Shown: positions 3,226-17,846 of the stretch, one piece after another
How the letters are laid out: each line of letters begins with the position of its first letter
Position numbering within the stretch: the first letter of the stretch is position 1
Assembly: GCA_903933815.1 (NCBI GenBank)
Contig: CAIZLN010000057.1
Span: 1-64,000 of the forward strand
Length of the DNA: 64,000 bases
Origin: an uncultured Solirubrobacterales bacterium
GTDB taxonomy: Bacteria > Actinomycetota > Thermoleophilia > Solirubrobacterales > 70-9
Direction: 5' to 3'
The notes under the pieces: model-generated
What the model was told of the DNA's origin: nothing
Seen by the model: the letters and a program-made list of their open reading frames with translations, nothing else
Database searches by the model: none
Translations under genes and position numbers: made by a program

Positions 3226-4443
3226 GTGCCAAAGACTCCGAACGACACGAACTGGCGAAACCCACGAAACAAGCATCCCAAACGCGCCCGTACCCTCGAG
3301 ACCGGCATCTACCTCCGTCACTCCTCCAGGTGTAAAGGTGGCTTCGACGGCCCCTGCGATTGCCACCCCACCTACCAGGCGCAGGTCCACTCGGCCAAGG
3401 ACAGAAAACCGGTCCGAAAGACTTTCCGCACCCTCGCTGAGGCAAGGCGCTGGCGCCACACCGCAAAGGAGAGGCTCAGAAAAGGAGAGCTCAGCGCACC
3501 GAGCTCGGTTCTCCTCCGTGATGCCGCCGAGCAGTGGATAAGGGACGCCGAGGCAGGAATCGTCCGAACCCGCTCCGGCGAGACTTACAAGCCCTCAGCC
3601 ATCCGCGGCTACGAGGCAGCCCTCCGGCGCTACCTGATCCCCGAGCTCGGCAACCTTCGCCTCTCGGCGATCACCAGAAAGCTCGTCCAGGAACTAGTCG
3701 ACAAGCTCGCCCGAACCGAGATGGCCCCGGCTACAGTTGCCAACTCGATAGCCCCGCTTCGCGTGATCTATCGCCAGGCAATTGACCGCGAGCAGATCCA
3801 CTCAAACCCGACCGAGCGCCTGAGGCTTCCCCGCGACCGCAGATCACGCGAGCGCATCGCCGAGCCACGGGAGGCCGAAGCCCTGCTAGGTGCCCTCGAC
3901 GAAAGGCATCGCCTGATCTGGGCCTTCGCTCTCTATACAGGCCTCAGGAAGGGAGAGCTTCAGGCGCTGAAGTGGCAGAACATCGATCTCGAGGCGGGCA
4001 TCCTCAAGGTCGAGCACTCGCTTGACCCGAAGGCAGGGCTCGTTGCACCGAAGAGCGAATCGGGCCGGCGCCGGGTACCGATCCCGGAAGTCCTCTCACC
4101 AGAGCTTGTGGCCCACATGGCTCGCCAGAGCGAAGACACCGAGTTCGTCCTGGCCAACACCAAAGGAAAGCCCTTCAACGCCTCAAACGTCTACCGCGTC
4201 TCACACCGGCTCTGGGGTACGGCAGGCCTTACGCCACTCGGCTTCCACGAAGCACGGCACACCTACGCCTCCTTCATGATCGCGGCCGGGGTAAACGCCA
4301 AGGCTCTCTCTACCTATATGGGCCACTCCTCGATCACGGTCACGATCGACCGCTATGGGCACCTCATGCCTGGCAACGAGAAGGAGGCGGCGAAGCTTCT
4401 GGATGCCTTTGTCGGGAAGCACTCCTCGGCTGGAGCATCATGA
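3226..4443 (+). CDS. Tyrosine recombinase / phage-type integrase
   Basis: TGLRKGEL, HEARHTYASFM and YMGHSSITVTIDRYGHL catalytic boxes; GTG start. Confidence 0.95.
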   Translation: MPKTPNDTNWRNPRNKHPKRARTLETGIYLRHSSRCKGGFDGPCDCHPTYQAQVHSAKDRKPVRKTFRTLAEARRWRHTAKERLRKGELSAPSSVLLRDAAEQWIRDAEAGIVRTRSGETYKPSAIRGYEAALRRYLIPELGNLRLSAITRKLVQELVDKLARTEMAPATVANSIAPLRVIYRQAIDREQIHSNPTERLRLPRDRRSRERIAEPREAEALLGALDERHRLIWAFALYTGLRKGELQALKWQNIDLEAGILKVEHSLDPKAGLVAPKSESGRRRVPIPEVLSPELVAHMARQSEDTEFVLANTKGKPFNASNVYRVSHRLWGTAGLTPLGFHEARHTYASFMIAAGVNAKALSTYMGHSSITVTIDRYGHLMPGNEKEAAKLLDAFVGKHSSAGAS

Positions 4444-5490: not shown

Positions 5491-5535
5491 CAACTACGAA
5501 ACCGAAGGTCACTGGTTCGAATCCAGTCGGGCGCA
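5491..5535 (+). other. tRNA-Arg(ACG)-like 3'-half fragment
   Basis: CTACGAA anticodon loop, ACTGGTTCGAATCCAGT perfect T-arm, CGGGCGCA acceptor end; no matching GCGCCCG 5' acceptor upstream. Confidence 0.6.
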
Positions 5536-5945: not shown

Positions 5946-8081
5946 ATGACCCGCAGGCTCCGCCTCGCCCTCGCTTCGATTCTCACCCTCGCCTCCGCAG
6001 TCGTCGCGACCCTCCTTCTGGGGGGATCGGCCCCGGCGGCGGAGCCGGTTCGGGTCGAGGTCGAGACCCCGACCCGGCAGGCGGTCGAGGCCCTGGTCGA
6101 GGCGGGGCTCGACGTAGCCTCGGGCGACCTACCCGAATCCGACGTGCTCCTCTGGTCGAGGGAGGACCGTCTCGCCCTGCGGGAGGCCGGACTCGAGTGG
6201 CGACCCCTTCCCGACCCGAGGCCCGGGACCCGGACCGAGCTCCCCACCCTCCCCTCCGGCGGGACGACCTACCGGGTCTGGGAGGACTACGAGACCGAGA
6301 TGCGGAGGCTCGCCAGGCGCTACCCGTCCCTGGTCCGGCTCCGCTCGATGGGAAAGACGCTCCTCGGGGAGCCAATGCTCGGCCTGGAGATCGCAAGGAA
6401 CGTCTGGGCGAGCGACGGCAGGCCGGCCTTCGTCCAGTACGGACTACACCACGCCCGGGAGTGGCCCTCGGGCGAGTGGGGCATCGAGTACGCGATCGAG
6501 CTGCTCGAAAATCGGGACCGGCCCCGCTACTCGAGCCTGCTCAGGAACACCCGCCACTTCATCTTCCCCGTGGTCAACGTCGACGGCTTCCAGGCCTCCC
6601 GGGGCGCTGGCCCCAGCCCGATCGGGGCACCGGAATCGCCCAACCCCCGGCTCGGGGCAGGGAGCAACGAGTACCGGCGGACGAACTGCCGGCCGCTCCC
6701 CGGCGAGGCCCAACTGCCCTGCAGTGCACTTGACACGCGGGCCGGGGTCGACCTGAACCGTAACTACGGCTTTTACTTCGGTGGCACAGGGACCGAAGGA
6801 ATCCCGACGAGCGAGATCTACCGCGGACCGGCTGGCTTCTCCGAGCCCGAGAGCGAGAACGTCCGCCTGTTCACCAGGCGGCTCCAGCCGACCGTCGTCC
6901 TCAGTCACCACACCTACTCGGAAGAGGGACTCTGGCTGCGCCAGCCCGCTTTGGACCCCGCGCTACCGCCCGGCGACATCACACCCGACCAGTCCGAGTT
7001 CACGGCTATCGGGGACTTGCTGGCGATCGCCACCGGGTGGGCCTCCATTCCTGCCTTCCAGCTTTACCCCGTAGCCGGTGCGACCGACGACTGGAACTAC
7101 CATGCCCAGGGGGCAATTGCCTTCACCAGCGAGAGCCGCGGCCCCAACTTCCACTCCTACTTCAACCAGATGGTCCGGGCCGAGTGGCCGGGGATGAGGG
7201 AGGCGATCCTCCGTGCGGCCGAGGCATCGGTAAGGGAGGGCTCACGGATTAAGGGTACGGCGCCACCCGGATCGATCCTTCGGATCACCAAGACGTTCTC
7301 GATCCCCGTCTGCCAGGGATTTACCGAGGAAAACCAGTGCATCTCTCCCACCCCGACCATCCCCGAACGACTCTCGAGCGAGATGGTCGTGCCGGCCTCC
7401 GGAGAGTTTTCCTGGCGGGTCAACCCGTCCTCGCGCCCACTCTTCCCGGGGGAGACCTGGCGGCTTACCTGCGAGGCCCCCGGCGGTCAGCCGGTCAGCC
7501 GGGAGGTCGCCGTCGAAAGGGGCGAGTCGGCAACTGTAGGCCTTGCCAACTGCAGGCCGGGGTCTGCCGGGCGACCGGTGGCCAGGTTCGGGCTGATCGA
7601 GCGGGCCTTTGCGGGCCGGAGGGTCGGCCTGGTCTCCAGGAGTACCGACCCCGACACCTTAATCGTCTCGAATCGGTGGGACCTCGACGGCGACGGCGCC
7701 TTCGACGATGCCTCCGGTCGGGTCGCGGCCCGTATCTGGCGGAGGTCAGGACCGAAGAGGGTGGGCCTCAGATCGGTCGATCTGGACGGCCGGGTCGCCG
7801 TTACGCGCAGGCGGATCCGGGTGGCGCCAAGGCCCTCCGGCAGACCCCCCCTCTCCCTCCGGATCATCACTTCGACGGGCGACACCAACATCGTCTTCCT
7901 CGCCTCCGGGCCGCTAGGCACCTACCGGTGGGACCTCGACGGCGACGGCGCCTTCGACGATGGCCGGGGATCAGAGCTCTCCCGGACCTACCGCCAAGCC
8001 GGTAACTATCGGATCCGGGTCCGCCTGACCGACACCTTCGGTCGAGTCGCCACCCGTGGATCCTCGGTAACGGTCGGCTGA
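5946..8081 (+). CDS. Secreted M14-family zinc carboxypeptidase with C-terminal PKD-like repeats
   Basis: Signal peptide, YGLHHAREWPSGEW (HxxE), GVDLNRNYGF, and two DGDGAFDDxxG PKD-like repeats. Confidence 0.92.
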   Translation: MTRRLRLALASILTLASAVVATLLLGGSAPAAEPVRVEVETPTRQAVEALVEAGLDVASGDLPESDVLLWSREDRLALREAGLEWRPLPDPRPGTRTELPTLPSGGTTYRVWEDYETEMRRLARRYPSLVRLRSMGKTLLGEPMLGLEIARNVWASDGRPAFVQYGLHHAREWPSGEWGIEYAIELLENRDRPRYSSLLRNTRHFIFPVVNVDGFQASRGAGPSPIGAPESPNPRLGAGSNEYRRTNCRPLPGEAQLPCSALDTRAGVDLNRNYGFYFGGTGTEGIPTSEIYRGPAGFSEPESENVRLFTRRLQPTVVLSHHTYSEEGLWLRQPALDPALPPGDITPDQSEFTAIGDLLAIATGWASIPAFQLYPVAGATDDWNYHAQGAIAFTSESRGPNFHSYFNQMVRAEWPGMREAILRAAEASVREGSRIKGTAPPGSILRITKTFSIPVCQGFTEENQCISPTPTIPERLSSEMVVPASGEFSWRVNPSSRPLFPGETWRLTCEAPGGQPVSREVAVERGESATVGLANCRPGSAGRPVARFGLIERAFAGRRVGLVSRSTDPDTLIVSNRWDLDGDGAFDDASGRVAARIWRRSGPKRVGLRSVDLDGRVAVTRRRIRVAPRPSGRPPLSLRIITSTGDTNIVFLASGPLGTYRWDLDGDGAFDDGRGSELSRTYRQAGNYRIRVRLTDTFGRVATRGSSVTVG

Positions 8082-9535: not shown

Positions 9536-9589
9536 GCCCTGCTGGATTCCTAGCTCGGCCCCTCGAAGCCCAATAACACCTGACCTCGA

Positions 9590-9633
9590 GGCGACGAAAC
9601 CGAAGCACTCAGGTTCGAGTCCTGTCGGGCGCG
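9590..9633 (+). other. tRNA-Arg-like 3'-half fragment
   Basis: GACGAAACCGAAGCACTCAGGTTCGAGTCCTGTCGGGCGCG, similar to 5491-5535; no intact 5' half. Confidence 0.5.
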
Positions 9634-9659
9634 TTCCCAGCGGACCATGACCGGTAACT

Positions 9660-9707: not shown

Positions 9708-10115
9708 CTACTTCTGGCCCTGTGCTCCCTCCTCGGCCGGGCCGTACCCGGCATCCTCGGCTCCGTATTCGCCCTGGCCTTCCATTTCTTCGCCCTTCTC
9801 GTCTTCTCCGCGCTCGACTCCGGCGACCTTGAAGGACTTGTCGAGGTAGACCTCGGCCTCAGAGCCGTCCTTCAGCTGCATCTCGACCTCGTAGCCTCCT
9901 CCGTAGTCCTCCTCGTACTCGACGTAGAGGACCCGGCCGTCTACCTCACGGGCTGCGGCTGCCTCGGCCTTCTGGGTCTCGGCCGTCGTCAGGGTCTTCT
10001 CCTTTTCTTTCGGTCCGTCTGCGATCGCGTAAGCGCCACCGCCGGCCGCGATCGCGAGTACCGCCGCACCGCCGATGATCAAGTTCCTCGTTCTGCTCGA
10101 CTTCATTTCTGTCAA
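9708..10115 (-). CDS. Membrane-anchored/exported PepSY-like acidic protein
   Basis: N-terminal hydrophobic segment, then GRVLYVEYEEDYGGGYEVEMQLKDGSEAEVYLDKSFKV, and an acidic/Gly tail. Confidence 0.65.
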   Translation of the reverse strand: MTEMKSSRTRNLIIGGAAVLAIAAGGGAYAIADGPKEKEKTLTTAETQKAEAAAAREVDGRVLYVEYEEDYGGGYEVEMQLKDGSEAEVYLDKSFKVAGVERGEDEKGEEMEGQGEYGAEDAGYGPAEEGAQGQK

Positions 10116-10337: not shown

Positions 10338-11213
10338 CTACTTCTTGGCCGACTTCTTCTTTTTCTTCACGGAGGCCTTTTTCGACTTGGGCTTTTTCGC
10401 CGGTTCACCGGGAAGCGGCGCGTCGGGGTCGGATACCTCGGTGTCGATCGTGCCCTGGGCGGCGCGGGAGCCGTAGAACCCGCCGCCCGGTCCCCTGAGG
10501 ACGAAGGCGAAGAGGACGGCCGCGATGGCACCGAGCAGCGGTCCGGCCGCGTAGACCCAGATCGCGGTCAGGTCGCCGCCGACGAGGTCGGGCCCGAAGG
10601 TCCGGGCGAAGTTCATCGAGGCTCCCGAGAGCGGTGCGGCCCAGAGGCCGGCGAGGGCGATGTAGGCGCCGACCCCGATCGCGCCGATGACCCCGATGTT
10701 CTGGGCACCGGAGGCCGTCCCGAGGATCACCGAGACCAGTCCGAAGGTGAGCACCGCCTCGGTCCCGAAGGCCGCGAGATCGGAGGTAGCGACGCCGGGG
10801 TAGCTGCCGCCATCAGAGGCCGAGAGGCCGACCAGGGCTTCGAGCAGCAGGGCCGCGACGATCGCACCGGTGATCTGGACGACAATGTAGCCGGGCACCC
10901 GGTTCCACGGGAAGTCACCCCTGAGAGCGAAGGCGATCGAGACCCCGGGATTCAGGTGGGCGCCCGAGACCTTGCCCATGAACATGATGATCGCCATCAC
11001 CATCATCCCTGGGGCGACGACGGCGGCGGCGAGGCTGACCGTTCCGGGGTAGGCCTTGGCGACCATTGCGGCGCCGGCGGCCACGAGGACCAGGAAGAAA
11101 GTCCCGACGAACTCCGAGATCAGTCGCCGCCACTCCTGCTTCGGGTCCTGGAAATTGGTTATTGCCTGGTCGAGGTCCAGGGCCTTTTCGCCGATGAAGC
11201 TTTCGTCAGTCAC
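10338..11213 (-). CDS. Aquaporin/MIP-family channel with Lys-rich C-terminal tail
   Basis: EFVGTFFLV, HLNPGVSIAFALRGD (first NPA box, NPG) and GASMNFARTFGPDLV (second box, NFA); tail KKPKSKKASVKKKKKSAKK. Confidence 0.9.
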   Translation of the reverse strand: MTDESFIGEKALDLDQAITNFQDPKQEWRRLISEFVGTFFLVLVAAGAAMVAKAYPGTVSLAAAVVAPGMMVMAIIMFMGKVSGAHLNPGVSIAFALRGDFPWNRVPGYIVVQITGAIVAALLLEALVGLSASDGGSYPGVATSDLAAFGTEAVLTFGLVSVILGTASGAQNIGVIGAIGVGAYIALAGLWAAPLSGASMNFARTFGPDLVGGDLTAIWVYAAGPLLGAIAAVLFAFVLRGPGGGFYGSRAAQGTIDTEVSDPDAPLPGEPAKKPKSKKASVKKKKKSAKK

Positions 11214-13150
11214 AGGTCCTTTCTACCTGAACGCTCGGCGGCTTCGGTCTGGGCCGGAGGGATCCGGGGTGTCGGAGGCCGGGAGGTCGGGAGAGTTCGG
11301 TCGCCGCCATTCGAGGCGGTGATGCCCTCGAGCATGAAGCAGCCGATCGCCGCGTACCAGGCTTCCTCCAGTGCCAGGACTGCACCGTCGGCTTCCCGGT
11401 CGGTACCCCGGAGTCCCTCGAACCCGGCCAGGCCCCACTCAGTCGACCAGACCGGGTAGCCCACTTCCACCCCTCTTGACTGCAGGTCGGAGGACCAGTA
11501 GCCGACCGTCGAGGTTGCACCCTGGACGGCGGTTGGAAGCAGCTCCGAGCCCCGGTTGGCAGCGACTTCCTCACCGATCCCGAAGTTCTGCAGGCCGAGG
11601 ATCGAGTCGCCCTCGACCAGGATCGCTCCGATCACGAAGAACGAGATCGCACTCGAGGCCTGGGTCATTTCCTCCTCGATCGAGTCGGTTCCAACCGGTA
11701 TCCGGGCTGCCACCCTTCCGAGGGCCCGGAAGGCCGGGTAAATGTAGTCCGGGATCCCACCGAGACCGGTTGCTTCGACCACCTTGTCGAAGTACTCCTC
11801 GCTCGCCCGGCCACCTCTGATCAGGAAGTTCGTGTAGCCGGAGAGAAAGGCTGAGACTTCATCCCGGCCGGGTCCGGCGGCCTCCCCGGAGGCACCGGCC
11901 AGCGCGGCCTCGATCGCATCCGGGCCGAACACCTCGATTGCTGCTCCGGAGTCGGCAACGACGCCAGCCCGCTCGACCAGCCCGTCTCGGCCGATCTCAC
12001 CTTTGAGGAGGTCCTCCTGAACCGCCTGGAGAAGCGCGGTCGAGTAGGTAATCCAGCCAAGGGCCACGGGGATGAGCAGCTGTTGTTCGAAATTCCTGCC
12101 GCCGGCCCGTTTCACAGCGCCGGCCGTGGTCTCCCCGGCCTTCTTCTCAAGGGCAGCGATCCGTTCGCGGAGCAGGCCGATTGCCGCAGCGCGCCCGGAG
12201 TCGCTGAGGACGGACTCGACCTCGGCCCGAAAGGCCTCGCGACTGGCCGCCTTCAGCGCGTCTACCCCGAGAGCGTACGAGAGCGCGAGGTCACCGTTTG
12301 CCAGGGCATCGGCTGCGGCCTCAGAGCGATCGATGGTCGTGGCGCTGATCACCCCGGGGTTTGCGGTTTCGATCAACTGCCCTAGGCGGTCGTTCAGGCG
12401 TTCCGTGGTCCTGCTGGCGACGGCATCCACTTCGGCGCCGCGCCTGGGTGGGTCACCCGAGCCGGGAGCGATGTTGTTGCCGGTGAAGGCCCTGTAGGCG
12501 GTACCGATGTTCGGCGCGACCCTTACCTCGATCCCGAGCGAGCGGCCCAGTTCGGTCATCTGGATCTCCTCGCCGGTATCGGGGTCGGCTTCACGCTCGG
12601 TGCCGACCGGGATCAGGACCGTCCTGTAGCCGTCCTCGGCCGCCGCCCTGACTTTGGTCGCGACGTTGGTCACCGGCCCGATCGAGCCGTCGGGATTGAC
12701 CGTGCCGGTCATCGTCACCCCGGACCTGAGCTCATCACCCCTGATCGCGGCCAGGACACCGACGGTGAGTGCCGCACCTCCGGACGGGCCGTCGATCGGC
12801 CCGGTCACTTCGAAGCTCACGTCCACATCGTTTGGATCCGCACCGCTCAGGAGAGTTCCGACTGCCGCCGCCGAGGAGGAGGCTGCCTGCCACTGCTCGC
12901 CAGCCCCCTCTGCCGCGATGTCCTCGAGGCTCAGCGTGAAGCCGGGCTCCCCGACCGATTCGACCTTGACCTTTGCCGGCTCGATACCCCCGGCGATCGT
13001 GCCGTCGCTCTGCGGGGCCGCCCAGAGCACCGGGACGGTTCGCGATCCGTCAGAGCCGCAGCCGGTCAAAGCGATCGCGACCAGAAGCAGGAGTCCCGGG
13101 GTTGCGAGCAGACCGGTCCCTCGTCTCCTGGCTCCACGCTCAGCCACCAT
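11210..13150 (-). CDS. Lipoprotein with Lon-type S16 peptidase domain (no AAA+ module)
   Basis: Lipobox ALTGC; GPIDGPSGGAALTVGVLAAI (catalytic Ser) and GPVTNVATKVRAAAEDGYRTVLIP (catalytic Lys). Confidence 0.88.
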   Translation of the reverse strand: MVAERGARRRGTGLLATPGLLLLVAIALTGCGSDGSRTVPVLWAAPQSDGTIAGGIEPAKVKVESVGEPGFTLSLEDIAAEGAGEQWQAASSSAAAVGTLLSGADPNDVDVSFEVTGPIDGPSGGAALTVGVLAAIRGDELRSGVTMTGTVNPDGSIGPVTNVATKVRAAAEDGYRTVLIPVGTEREADPDTGEEIQMTELGRSLGIEVRVAPNIGTAYRAFTGNNIAPGSGDPPRRGAEVDAVASRTTERLNDRLGQLIETANPGVISATTIDRSEAAADALANGDLALSYALGVDALKAASREAFRAEVESVLSDSGRAAAIGLLRERIAALEKKAGETTAGAVKRAGGRNFEQQLLIPVALGWITYSTALLQAVQEDLLKGEIGRDGLVERAGVVADSGAAIEVFGPDAIEAALAGASGEAAGPGRDEVSAFLSGYTNFLIRGGRASEEYFDKVVEATGLGGIPDYIYPAFRALGRVAARIPVGTDSIEEEMTQASSAISFFVIGAILVEGDSILGLQNFGIGEEVAANRGSELLPTAVQGATSTVGYWSSDLQSRGVEVGYPVWSTEWGLAGFEGLRGTDREADGAVLALEEAWYAAIGCFMLEGITASNGGDRTLPTSRPPTPRIPPAQTEAAERSGRKDL

Positions 13151-14168
13151 CGCGGACCGGCCGGGTGCTCTCGCGTTCGATCAGCCTGCCGTCGATCACC
13201 ACTGGCCCTGATGGCTCTTCACCCCTGATCCGGGCCATCAGGAGCTTGACCGCCGCCTCGGCCTGGGCAACCGGGTCGAGGTCGAAGCAGGTGATCGCCG
13301 GATCGCCGTCCCTCAGCGGTGCGCCGTCGACCAGGCCGGCTATCTGGAGGCCCTCGGGTACCTCGATACCTTCATCCTGGGCGGCCTCCAGGGCGCCGAT
13401 CGCCGAATCGACGGTCAGGGCGAGCAGGGCATCCGGGGGGTCTTCCCCGGTGAGCAGGTCTGCCGTTGCTGCCCGCGCGCCATCCCGGTCGCCTGGCCCC
13501 GCGCTCAGCACAGTTGTCACCATCTCGACCTCATTGGCCCAGCCACGGTAGGCAGCCTCGTTTCCCAAGAACCAGCCCCATGGCTCGTCGCTGCTGATCA
13601 GGACTATCCGTCTGGCCCCGGAGGCCCGAAGCCGGTCGAGCACCGAGCGGCAGTTCCCCTCGTTATCGGCGATTACCGCCCAGGGATCGCCGGGGAGCGA
13701 GGGGTCGGTCCCGATCGTGACTACGGGCGTCCCCTCCTTCCGCAGCCGTTTGACCGATGGGTCCCGGCGGGGGGGATCGATCACGATCACACCGTCGGCG
13801 AGTTCGGCTCCGGTCGAGTCTCCGTCGATCTCGGGTAGCAGGACCAGGCCGAGGTCCCCGGCAACCGCGGCGCGTGACGCTCCGATCAGTGCCGACACGT
13901 AGTACTCGTGGGCCAGCACCTCGACGCCCCCGGCGGAGGGGAGCATCAAGGCGATCAACCCACTCTGGCCGGTCCGGAGTCCCTGTGCCACCCGGTTGAC
14001 CCGGTATCCGAGGTTCCCTGCCGCCCGCTTGACCCTCTTGCGGGTCTCCTCGGTGACCCGATCAGATCCGCGCAGGGCATCCGACGCAGTCCCCTGAGAG
14101 ACCGAGGCCTCCCGGGCTACATCGATGATGGTGGGCTTCCTGCCTGCTTCGCTCGTCACTCGATACAC
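13140..14168 (-). CDS. LacI-family transcriptional regulator
   Basis: TIIDVAREASVSQGTASDALRGSDRVTEETRKRVKRAAGNLGYRVN HTH plus periplasmic-binding-like domain. Confidence 0.93.
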   Translation of the reverse strand: MYRVTSEAGRKPTIIDVAREASVSQGTASDALRGSDRVTEETRKRVKRAAGNLGYRVNRVAQGLRTGQSGLIALMLPSAGGVEVLAHEYYVSALIGASRAAVAGDLGLVLLPEIDGDSTGAELADGVIVIDPPRRDPSVKRLRKEGTPVVTIGTDPSLPGDPWAVIADNEGNCRSVLDRLRASGARRIVLISSDEPWGWFLGNEAAYRGWANEVEMVTTVLSAGPGDRDGARAATADLLTGEDPPDALLALTVDSAIGALEAAQDEGIEVPEGLQIAGLVDGAPLRDGDPAITCFDLDPVAQAEAAVKLLMARIRGEEPSGPVVIDGRLIERESTRPVRDGG

Positions 14169-14232
14169 CCCTGATCAGACAGTTGGATGACACCGGAAGA
14201 GGGTCCTTCGGAATGTCACGATATCGGCCGAC

Positions 14233-14267
14233 CTGATGCGGTCCCCCGATGAAGGGGTCTGCATCAG
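14233..14267. promoter_or_regulatory. Long imperfect inverted repeat upstream of LacI gene
   Basis: CTGATGC...GCATCAG with inner TCCCC/GGGG pairing, about 65 bp upstream of the LacI start. Confidence 0.45.
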
Positions 14268-14292
14268 ACCGGTTTGAACCCTGCGGGCGCCG

Positions 14293-14332
14293 ATCCCCGG
14301 GGAGCGTCTGCGGTGGACGCAGCCCCGGGGAT
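14293..14332. terminator. Long hairpin downstream of minus-strand lipoprotein
   Basis: ATCCCCGGGGagCGTC...GACGcagCCCCGGGGAT, adjacent to the stop at 14343. Confidence 0.65.
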
Positions 14333-14342
14333 TACCCGCCCC

Positions 14343-15038
14343 CTAAAGGGCCTCGATCGTGAACCGCTTGAACTGCTTGCTGTCGCCGAGTCGAGTGATC
14401 TTCAGATTGAGCTGACAGAAGGTGTCATCGTCGGTGAGGGTCTGTGACTTGTTTTCGCCCAGGGCGACGACGCGATCCCGGTTTCCGTACTCCAGAAAGC
14501 ATTCATTCCCCGCTCCGGACTGGATGGTGAACTTGGGCTTGCCGATGGTCGGGTTGGTGATGGAGAAGTTGAGCCGACCGAGGATGCCCCCGCCTTCCCT
14601 TTCCTCCGGATCGGGCCAGGTGATGGTGCTCTCGAACTTACCCAGGCGGTTGGCATCCACGGAGAACAGAACCTCCCCGTTGTAGGACTCCCACTTCCCG
14701 TACTCGTTGGACGGGATCGCCCGGGGAGACATTCCTCCCTCACGGGTGTAGCAGGGGTTATCCCTATCCGGGTTGTCCGGGCAGGACTTGCCGTAGCCGG
14801 CGACCCCGACCTCGATCGGCTGCTTCTTGTACCTGTAGCTGTTGACGAAGTCGACCTCGATGCCCCTGAGGTCACCGAACGAGTTTCCGATCGATTCAGA
14901 CCAGGCCTGTGTCTTGCCCCCGGATGCCTCGCGATCCGGTTCCTCGTCGCTACTGCCACAGGCGGCAAGCGTCAGGGAAGAGGCAGCGAGAAGTGAAACC
15001 AGGGCGAGCGGGATGAGGCGTGAACTTCGCTTGAACAT
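14343..15038 (-). CDS. Hypothetical lipoprotein
   Basis: Start at MFKRSSRLIPLALVSLLAASSLTLAACGSS (lipobox LAAC). Confidence 0.75.
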   Translation of the reverse strand: MFKRSSRLIPLALVSLLAASSLTLAACGSSDEEPDREASGGKTQAWSESIGNSFGDLRGIEVDFVNSYRYKKQPIEVGVAGYGKSCPDNPDRDNPCYTREGGMSPRAIPSNEYGKWESYNGEVLFSVDANRLGKFESTITWPDPEEREGGGILGRLNFSITNPTIGKPKFTIQSGAGNECFLEYGNRDRVVALGENKSQTLTDDDTFCQLNLKITRLGDSKQFKRFTIEAL

Positions 15039-15337
15039 AAAATTTATCCTTTTTTCGAAACGATTCGATTTCAGTATGGCCGGAAGGTACCATATCTTCA
15101 TGTGGGAAACCCGGCCCTCTGGTCCCGAACCCGCAAAACGGACTTCGGACGGGAGCGAAACAGAGGCAGGGTTGATCAGGGTTCCCGGGTGTGATTGCTC
15201 GTGAGCGGGTCAGCGGGGGACTAAGCATTGAAACGGCAGGAGATGAAGGGTCGCTGGTCCGGCTCTTTGTTCCCGCTTGTTGTCGGCAGGCCTTGAAGCC
15301 GGGGCCGGAGAAGTCGCCCGCCGGGTAGGTTTCAGCG

Positions 15338-15724
15338 ATGGATCCGCCCGATTCGAGCAGGTCGATCATGAGGCTGACAGGCGTCTACGATGCCAACGGC
15401 TCCCTTTCGGGTGAGCTTGCCTACTGGGTAGGGGCCCGGTTGGGGCGCCGGCACTGCGCCCTTTGCGACATCACCCACGGCCTGATCAGGGAGAGGCCGG
15501 AGTGGCTTCGTCTGCAGGGTCAGCTGCCGGTCGAGTTCACTGCCGTCCACCTGGACGAGCGTGAGCCGGTCGTTGCCGATGCGAGCCACGGCAGGGCGCC
15601 CTGCGTGGTCGCCGTTTTTGACGACGGCTCCGCAGAGGTTGTGATCTACCGGGACGAACTGGAAGCCTGTGGGGGAGACCCACAGAGCCTCTTTGAGCTT
15701 CTGTCGCAGGTCTCCGGAAAGTGA
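15338..15724 (+). CDS. Conserved hypothetical protein with HCALCDITHG motif
   Basis: 128 aa; RLGRRHCALCDITHG CxxC motif. Confidence 0.65.
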   Translation: MDPPDSSRSIMRLTGVYDANGSLSGELAYWVGARLGRRHCALCDITHGLIRERPEWLRLQGQLPVEFTAVHLDEREPVVADASHGRAPCVVAVFDDGSAEVVIYRDELEACGGDPQSLFELLSQVSGK

Positions 15725-15776
15725 GCGGGTATATTCCCTTGGTGGCCATGTCATCAGCCTCGATCGGAAACCAACC

Positions 15777-17846
15777 GTGAGCGCGATTTTGGCCTCGGCC
15801 AGGGAGAGGTATTCTGCCTCAAAGCTGAAGTTCTTTGCCGGGAGGCTACTTCTCACCGCGGTGCTTGTTTTCGGCTCCTTTGGTCTGTTTGCTACGGCTG
15901 CGACGGCACTCTCGCCCCCGGTGGTTGACCCTGCGGCCTTTCTGTTTGATCCAACCAAGGTCGTTGAAATCGAAATCGATCTTTCCGAGGATGCGATTAC
16001 AGCGCTAAACGACGCCCCCTACGAGTACGTGAGCGCGACCTTCACCATGGTCGACGGAGCAACTGTCTACGGCCCCTGGCCTGTGAAGGTGAAGCTGAAG
16101 GGGAAGTACGGCTCGTTCAGGCCCCTGAGTGGCAAGAGTGCCTTCAAGCTCAAGTTCGGAAACTCGGGCCAGCGGGTGGGCGGCCTGAAGAAGATGACCC
16201 TCAACAACATGGTTCAGGACGGAACCAACGTCCACGAGGCGATCGGGTATGAGCTCTTCCGCGCGATGGGGGTTCCGGCTCCCCGGACGAGTTACGCCGT
16301 GGTCTCGGTGAACGGGGTCGACTACGGCCTTCATCTGAATATCGAGACCCTCGACGATGTGTTCCTGGAGAAGTGGTTCGGGCCGTCGAACACCACCCAC
16401 CTCTACGAAGGAAACTACGGCGACTGGCTGGGGAGCGTTTTTGACCCCTTCAGTGCCCATTACGAGGTTGATGAGGGAAACGAGGAGCAGCGGGACGACC
16501 TCGCGGCGCTCCTCGTCGCATCCCAGACTGAAGGGGACGGCTGGCTGGCCGCCGTGGACGCGGTGGCTGACCTCGATCAGATGATCAAGATGTGGGCGGT
16601 TGAGCACTACATCGGCCATTGGGACGGCTACGCCCATGGTCTGACCAACAACTACTACCTGCACAGCAATGCGGCAGGCGAGTTCACGGTGCTTCCCTGG
16701 GGGATCGATCAGACGAGCAATGACGTCAACTTTCAGTTTGGTGTGCCCTCGGGTGGCTCCATCTGGGTCCGGTGCGTCACCGACGATCGCTGCCGGAGCA
16801 GATACATCGACGCTCTGGCCGCTGTGAACGTGAAGGCCATGGAGCTCGATCTCGGCACGAAGGCCGTGACTCTCTGGAACAACATTTCCGACGAAATCGA
16901 GGCCGACAACCGCCGGGAGTACTCCTTCGAGGATTCCGCCTCCTGGATCAACTCGGTTCCGGATTTCTATACAGGCCGACCGGCCGTGCTCCAGGCCTGG
17001 CTTGCGGTCGCCAATGCTCCGGTCAATACCGCCCAGCCCTTCATCTCGGGGACGGCCGAGGTCGGCCAGACACTGACTGCCGATCCCGGACGCTGGACGG
17101 GCGAGCCGGACCCGACCTTCACCTTCCAGTGGTGGCGGTGCGAGGCTGATGGTTCGGCCTGCACCGATATCGGATCCGACCTAAGCACCTACACCCTCAA
17201 GCCTGATGATTATTTGAAGGTGATCGAAGTCTCGGTCACCGCCTCCAACGGGCTTGAACCCGATGCCACGGTGGCCAGCCAGCGCACCGTTGAGATCGTC
17301 GGTCTGGCGCCGCTAAATGGCGATTCACCGGAAAACCGACCGTCGGTGAGCGGGGTGGCCAGAGCCGGCCGGACGCTGACCGCCGATCCGGGTGCGTGGT
17401 CCGGTGTGCCAGCTCCGACCTTCTCCTTCCAGTGGTGGCGGTGCGAGGCCGATGGTTCGGCCTGCTTTGAAGTCGGCTCCGGCGAGAGCACCTACGCCCT
17501 CTCTGCCGCTGATATCTCAAAGAGGATTGAGGTGAGTGTCACGGCGTCCAATCCGGTCGGCTCTGAAGCCTCGACGAGCCTGCCGACCGAGCGCATCTAC
17601 CCGGCTCCCGTCTCGCTTCTGACTACGCCCTCGGCCTCGACCAGGGCCAGAAAGGCGACCTTTCGCTTTTCCACCTCGGCCCCGGGGCCGATCTTCAGGT
17701 GCAGGTTCGGCTCGGCCGCCCTGAAGCGCTGCGGCTCACCGAAGACCTATCGCAACCTCAAGCCGGGAAGGCATGTCTTCAAAGTCACCGTAACCTCAGC
17801 CGGACTCACCAGCCCGCCGGTTACTTTCCGCTGGAGGGTGAGGTAG
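15777..17846 (+). CDS. Secreted CotH-family protein (atypical kinase fold) with two Ig-like repeats
   Basis: GKSAFKLKFG...KKMTLNNMVQDGTNVHEAIGYELFRAMGVPAPRTSYAVVSVNGVDYGLHLNIETLDDVFL; two GxAxxGxTLTADPGxWxGxPxPTFxFQWWRCEADGSAC units. ORF track opens at 15669; start near GTG 15777 is inferred. Confidence 0.85.
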   Translation: MSAILASARERYSASKLKFFAGRLLLTAVLVFGSFGLFATAATALSPPVVDPAAFLFDPTKVVEIEIDLSEDAITALNDAPYEYVSATFTMVDGATVYGPWPVKVKLKGKYGSFRPLSGKSAFKLKFGNSGQRVGGLKKMTLNNMVQDGTNVHEAIGYELFRAMGVPAPRTSYAVVSVNGVDYGLHLNIETLDDVFLEKWFGPSNTTHLYEGNYGDWLGSVFDPFSAHYEVDEGNEEQRDDLAALLVASQTEGDGWLAAVDAVADLDQMIKMWAVEHYIGHWDGYAHGLTNNYYLHSNAAGEFTVLPWGIDQTSNDVNFQFGVPSGGSIWVRCVTDDRCRSRYIDALAAVNVKAMELDLGTKAVTLWNNISDEIEADNRREYSFEDSASWINSVPDFYTGRPAVLQAWLAVANAPVNTAQPFISGTAEVGQTLTADPGRWTGEPDPTFTFQWWRCEADGSACTDIGSDLSTYTLKPDDYLKVIEVSVTASNGLEPDATVASQRTVEIVGLAPLNGDSPENRPSVSGVARAGRTLTADPGAWSGVPAPTFSFQWWRCEADGSACFEVGSGESTYALSAADISKRIEVSVTASNPVGSEASTSLPTERIYPAPVSLLTTPSASTRARKATFRFSTSAPGPIFRCRFGSAALKRCGSPKTYRNLKPGRHVFKVTVTSAGLTSPPVTFRWRVR

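Follow-up and report, generated by a model that had tools for sequence, protein, structure and literature searches.

Why should a transcription regulator, a Lon-type protein and an aquaporin-like channel overlap one another on a bacterial chromosome? The initial annotation of a 64-kb stretch of DNA (the window) from an uncultured Solirubrobacterales bacterium (G000) described three such genes, and its coordinates prove exact: lacI (14168-13140), S16 (13150-11210) and MIP (11213-10338) follow in series on the minus strand, all three frames open, with overlaps of 11 nt (lacI/S16) and 4 nt (S16/MIP). The family calls hold too, the products matching the Pfam LacI and Peripla_BP_3, Lon_C, and MIP domains. 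The answer that we consider reasonably probable is that the locus is a young, locally assembled, LacI-regulated cassette without an obligate joint function, in which an exported S16 protein would cleave without ATP, the MIP would be a separate facilitator, and the genes would have been reshuffled beside a tRNA-Arg hot spot. The features discussed below are:

3226-4443, tyrosine integrase gene, downstream of the locus
5494-5534, second tRNA-Arg 3'-end fragment, downstream of the locus
9594-9634, plus strand, tRNA-Arg 3'-end fragment, an att-like scar adjoining the locus
10338-11213, minus strand, MIP (aquaporin-like) channel gene (Pfam MIP, 1.8e-44)
11210-13150, minus strand, gene for the S16 (Lon-type) lipoprotein, 646 aa (Lon_C, 6e-10)
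11213-11299, minus strand, G000-specific 29-codon C-terminal tail of the S16 protein, which creates the 4-nt overlap (from comparison of stop positions)
11312-12436, minus strand, all-helical C-terminal domain of the S16 protein, residues ~239-613 (~375 residues; AlphaFold2 model; no Pfam family)
12482-13045, minus strand, Lon-fold protease domain, residues ~36-223 (dyad, PDB profile and Foldseek)
13058-13150, minus strand, signal peptide with lipobox LTGC, Cys31 at 13060-13058 (Gly-Cys invariant in 18/18 relatives)
13140-14168, minus strand, LacI-family regulator gene (Pfam LacI, 4.1e-11; Peripla_BP_3, 3.7e-21)
14228-14272, no strand, inverted repeat in the gap separating lacI from the lipoprotein gene upstream (19-nt arms 14228-14246 and 14254-14272, 79% complementary)
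14293-14332, no strand, hairpin just past the upstream lipoprotein stop, probable transcript end (z -3.7 in G000, z -5.6 in G016)
14343-15101, minus strand, lipoprotein gene upstream of lacI in both G000 and G016, outside all known families and probably transcribed separately

Gene overlaps and the control region

Do the overlaps signal a shared function? Tight packing on one strand is compatible with a single transcript, and the overlaps and orientation make one lacI-S16-MIP transcript likely; the further claim, that the three genes form a conserved functional association, is not supported by comparison with relatives beyond a single pair of sister species. In a rough gene call of the window, 6 of the 40 same-strand neighbor pairs share exactly 4 nt and 8 share 4-14 nt; two successive overlaps are unremarkable because ~20% of same-strand neighbors overlap anyway. 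Conservation of the overlaps, proposed as a test, gives a split result in G016, a Solirubrobacterales metagenome-assembled genome (MAG): the lacI/S16 overlap is present, in near-identical DNA, and the S16/MIP overlap is not. There, S16 ends at codon 617 with a TGA, followed by an 83-nt gap before MIP; in G000 this codon is CGA (11299), and the frame continues for 29 codons across a nearly identical spacer into a GTGA overlap with MIP. Since the S16 members of a third species (G005) and of the genus g65 terminate at about G016's stop position, the 4-nt overlap looks incidental and peculiar to G000. The shared 11-nt overlap lies inside a 378-bp stretch free of differences (13313-12936) and, because this DNA is near-identical and recently exchanged between the two genomes, counts as one evolutionary sample. 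Gene overlaps by themselves thus say little about function: of the two here, one exists only because a single stop codon of one sister genome is a sense codon in the other.

Where would the transcript begin? The long inverted repeat reported upstream of lacI does exist: as RNA, 14228-14272 folds at -26.8 kcal/mol (z -3.7), and a repeat of equal score appears in 6/300 shuffles of the intergenic region. Its suggested role as the LacI operator, however, is rejected: G016 has no counterpart, and both genomes instead carry the hairpin after the upstream stop. The repeat could still take part in regulation in the G000 species. The hairpin probably ends the upstream lipoprotein transcript, in which case the lacI promoter would lie between ~14285 and 14168; a search for the sigma-70 promoter consensus between 9500 and 15700 found none. 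The lipoprotein gene itself is separated from lacI by this strong hairpin.

As for lacI, its true start is more likely GTG 14159 than GTG 14168 because an AGGGG stands 8 nt ahead of the former but directly against the latter. Its product has the HTH and the periplasmic-binding-like ligand-binding domain of LacI/GalR-family regulators, both over their Pfam cut-offs. It is 98% identical to its G016 homolog, differs from the nearest others in the order (only ~41% identity) and reaches no NCBIfam equivalog cut-off. The predicted target of LacI is its own operon: it probably represses lacI together with the two genes packed behind it.

The S16 lipoprotein and the MIP channel

How might a Lon-type protein work outside the cell, away from its motor? 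The N-terminus has the makings of a bacterial lipoprotein signal: a basic RRR, a hydrophobic stretch and LTGC. The domain behind it scores 39.5 bits for Lon_C (curated Pfam cut-off, 21.1) and matches solved Lon domains in a PDB profile search (5.4e-14); in that match, Ser123 (codon 12784-12782) and Lys166 (12655-12653) align with the Lon dyad, and their spacing of 43 residues equals that of S679/K722 in E. coli Lon. Both are invariant in 18/18 family members, as are the lipobox Gly-Cys, the GPSGG serine motif and several C-terminal residues, at an overall identity of ~40%. An AlphaFold2 run on three sequences was useless (pLDDT 42); the model used here, built from 18 sequences, has a mean pLDDT of 80.9, with the helical C-terminal domain mostly above 85. 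Searched with Foldseek, this model finds the E. coli Lon protease domain (E 1.7e-7, TM 0.70 by target), and all PDB matches listed are Lon-type domains. The Pfam scan shows no match outside the Lon domain, neither AAA+ nor PDZ, and the remainder of the chain is the signal peptide and the helical domain. Lacking AAA+ in the chain, the protein does not classify as an ATP-dependent Lon (LonA/B/C). The early description of a secreted, ATPase-less Lon-type lipoprotein thus appears sound as judged from the lipobox, the Lon_C domain, the intact dyad and the absence of an AAA match. We propose that the protein, once exported, receives a lipid on Cys31 that anchors it to the external side of the membrane; that its Ser/Lys dyad would there cleave, with no need of ATP, peptides or unfolded proteins at the surface or outside the cell, the presumed activity and substrates; and that the helical C-terminal domain may stand in for the AAA+ motor in substrate selection.

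Which known systems does it resemble? The Lon proteolytic domain (MEROPS S16; E. coli 1rr9/3wu6, Archaeoglobus fulgidus 1z0w, Bacillus subtilis LonBA 8dvh) shares the fold, the 43-residue Ser-Lys dyad and the DGPS motif; unlike Lon, the locus protein is an exported lipoprotein with no AAA+ or Lon N-terminal domain and with a new helical C-terminal domain. With SepM/YlbL-type PDZ-S16 proteins (NF041438) it would have in common an ATP-independent S16 domain outside the membrane, but the match is weak (32.7 bits over the S16 part, against a cut-off of 200), PDZ is missing, the anchor is a lipid, and the protease domain is followed by a helical one. In archaea, the ATPase-less Lon-like proteins of COG1750 combine a signal or membrane segment, an S16 domain and a long helical tail, an architecture that the locus protein may resemble. 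Literature searches on COG1750 found nothing, and those on secreted S16 proteins of this kind found only unrelated papers.

An order-wide search yields full-length S16 relatives only in G016 (80% identity) and G005 (62%). The other order-wide matches (E 1e-4 to 1e-11) were rejected as relatives of the lipoprotein and taken as ordinary Lon, since almost all fall in ORFs as long as those of Lon. With a profile built on its C-terminal part, the family is recovered, at ~40% identity, in 12 genomes of g65 (family f5, same class) and nowhere beyond those lineages in a phylum-wide sample of 397 genomes; a search for plasmid-borne relatives found none. In several g65 genomes, S16 paralogs form a head-to-head pair and fall into two well-supported tree groups; in the stretches read, other genes and neither LacI nor MIP lie beside them. 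The pairs in G242, G310 and G334 (L086, L089 and L090), small-genome members, share a conserved neighborhood and have almost zero intergenic space.

The lasting content of the locus is this narrow family of putative motor-less, lipid-anchored Lon-like proteases, each with its helical domain, together with the double-variant MIP channel described next. A bolder proposal can be offered only tentatively: that an unnamed family of this type inhabits two distant lineages of the class, in one of them often as divergent paralog pairs; that the helical domain, of ~375 residues, controls substrate access in place of the AAA+ ring; and that strains exchange the mature part. In either case, the family offers a testable example of a Lon-type protease working outside the cell without ATP.

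The channel, called an unusual aquaporin at the outset, deserves that name: its MIP domain carries NPG (N88) and NFA (N201) in place of NPA/NPA, and its filter positions, taken at fixed offsets, are Pro68/Gly189/Ala198/Arg204. This is not the F-H-T-R filter of AqpZ, and the protein scores 89 against an AqpZ cut-off of 256. Its best solved relative is of the plant silicon-channel type, NIP2-1 (PDB profile match, 1.3e-33). With such NIP/AqpN-like channels (plant NIP2-1, Lsi1: 7nl4, 7cjs) it shares small residues and an Arg in the filter; it differs from them in having NPG/NFA rather than NPA/NPA, Pro at the H2 filter position and a long basic C-terminal tail. The NPG/NFA pair is common to the MIPs of four species, G000, G016, G005 and G015 (81-96% identical), and arose within this subclade because more distant relatives in G009 and G040 (61-66% identical) keep NPA/NPA. 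Some other MIPs also deviate from NPA, and NPG/NFA is not among the variants seen in the relevant part of a survey that lists those of bacteria (PMC6912568). The channel is thus a naturally occurring variant at both copies of the most conserved aquaporin motif. Its likelier substrate is a small, uncharged solute rather than water, for which the MIP would be a facilitator in its own right, probably closer to NIP-like channels than to water-specific AqpZ.

Distribution and mosaic divergence

If the three genes worked together, would relatives keep them together? The trio occurs in 2 of the 18 genomes of the genus, those of the sister lake bacteria G000 and G016, both of which are fragmented MAGs (the G016 contig begins inside the upstream lipoprotein gene). 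S16 stands alone in G005 and, as in the 12 g65 genomes, lacks LacI and MIP in the neighborhoods read; MIP in turn has neither S16 nor LacI next to it in G005, G015, G009, g9 genomes and others. The gene-neighborhood comparison that the initial annotation had called for therefore goes against a conserved lacI-S16-MIP operon, which we reject: the order is kept only in G000 and G016, and the parts are separate elsewhere. The trio is a local arrangement, and no pathway should be inferred from the operon as such; the unusual features are those of single parts, the S16 protease family and the channel, rather than of the operon.

The DNA of the two genomes is a mosaic. Other genes in the window mostly show 64-82% nucleotide identity between G000 and G016 over longer matches; LacI and MIP reach 98% and 95%, respectively. 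Synonymous divergence (dS) is 0.03-0.06 for the whole of LacI and 0.23 for its first 60 codons, 0 for S16 codons 1-60, 0.6-0.9 for the rest of S16, and 0.14 for MIP. The divergent S16 block, from ~12935 to ~11302, has sharp edges, spans nearly the whole mature protein and lies at about the background level. Because LacI and MIP are far closer than this block, recombination acted on both sides of, or within, the S16 gene; because divergence is higher (80-90% identity) in the first ~30 codons of LacI and in the lipoprotein gene upstream, the gene order predates the latest exchange. It counts against the young-cassette reading that the trio is retained in two species whose other genes share ~70-80% DNA identity, and its order may be under selection. 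We suggest that the trio was assembled next to a tRNA-Arg integration hot spot and was reshuffled by recombination between related lake lineages.

Could the trio nevertheless be a true functional unit, with LacI sensing a solute (a sugar or peptide product) let in via the MIP and, in a joint response, the S16 lipoprotein processing a substrate at the surface? Tight packing, a lacI/S16 overlap present in both genomes and the same gene order in G016 speak for this idea, as does plant NIP2;1, a relative of the MIP that, besides metalloid acids, reportedly lets some saccharides through (PMC10716587). We consider it unlikely: the S16 family and the MIP are apart, and without LacI, in all other lineages where their surroundings were read; G016 lacks the S16/MIP overlap; and overlapping neighbors are common in the window.

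The mosaic also invites the view that mature S16 is an exchangeable surface cassette, in which LacI, the signal peptide and MIP are shared and divergent mature proteins are swapped, like variable surface antigens. The block does approximate the mature protein, with a nearly identical flank on the LacI side and a ~95% identical one on the MIP side, and conservation within S16 is lowest in the helical part (59% identity over residues 226-350). But only two alleles are known, the dN/dS of the block stays below 1, and its dS is about that of other genes, so the flanks rather than the block may have moved; an antigen-like exchange strikes us as quite improbable. Hardly credible is a non-catalytic S16 scaffold with the helical domain as the working part: no ATPase feeds substrate to the S16 domain, as this idea would have it, but Ser, Lys, GPSGG and TGT..PDG are invariant or nearly so in 18/18 members that share ~40% identity, and ATPase-less S16 proteases such as SepM are active (PMC11197336).

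The tRNA-Arg hot spot and neighboring genes

A young cassette assembled locally, the reading preferred here, also has a plausible site of origin. The integrase and the two tRNA-Arg(ACG) 3'-end fragments appear to mark tandem integrated islands. An intact tRNA-Arg is present in G000, on another contig, and in G016, in which it and a matching fragment flank a different gene set (ADH, tautomerase, TetR) beside the same locus. The trio thus borders an integration hot spot, in keeping with its patchy distribution. The tRNA-Arg(ACG) positions compared on other contigs are L053:6155-6195 and 9565-9640 and L131:1449-1523.

Several neighbors complete the picture of the region. Between the two tRNA fragments, and possibly as island cargo, lies a gene for a secreted zinc carboxypeptidase (M14) with a PKD domain (5946-8081). 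A PepSY-domain gene (9708-10115) follows downstream of MIP; its G016 counterpart has 93% DNA identity, with an alpha/beta hydrolase gene intervening. On the other side, a CotH-kinase-domain protein with Ig-like repeats is encoded at 15669-17846 and transcribed away from the locus.
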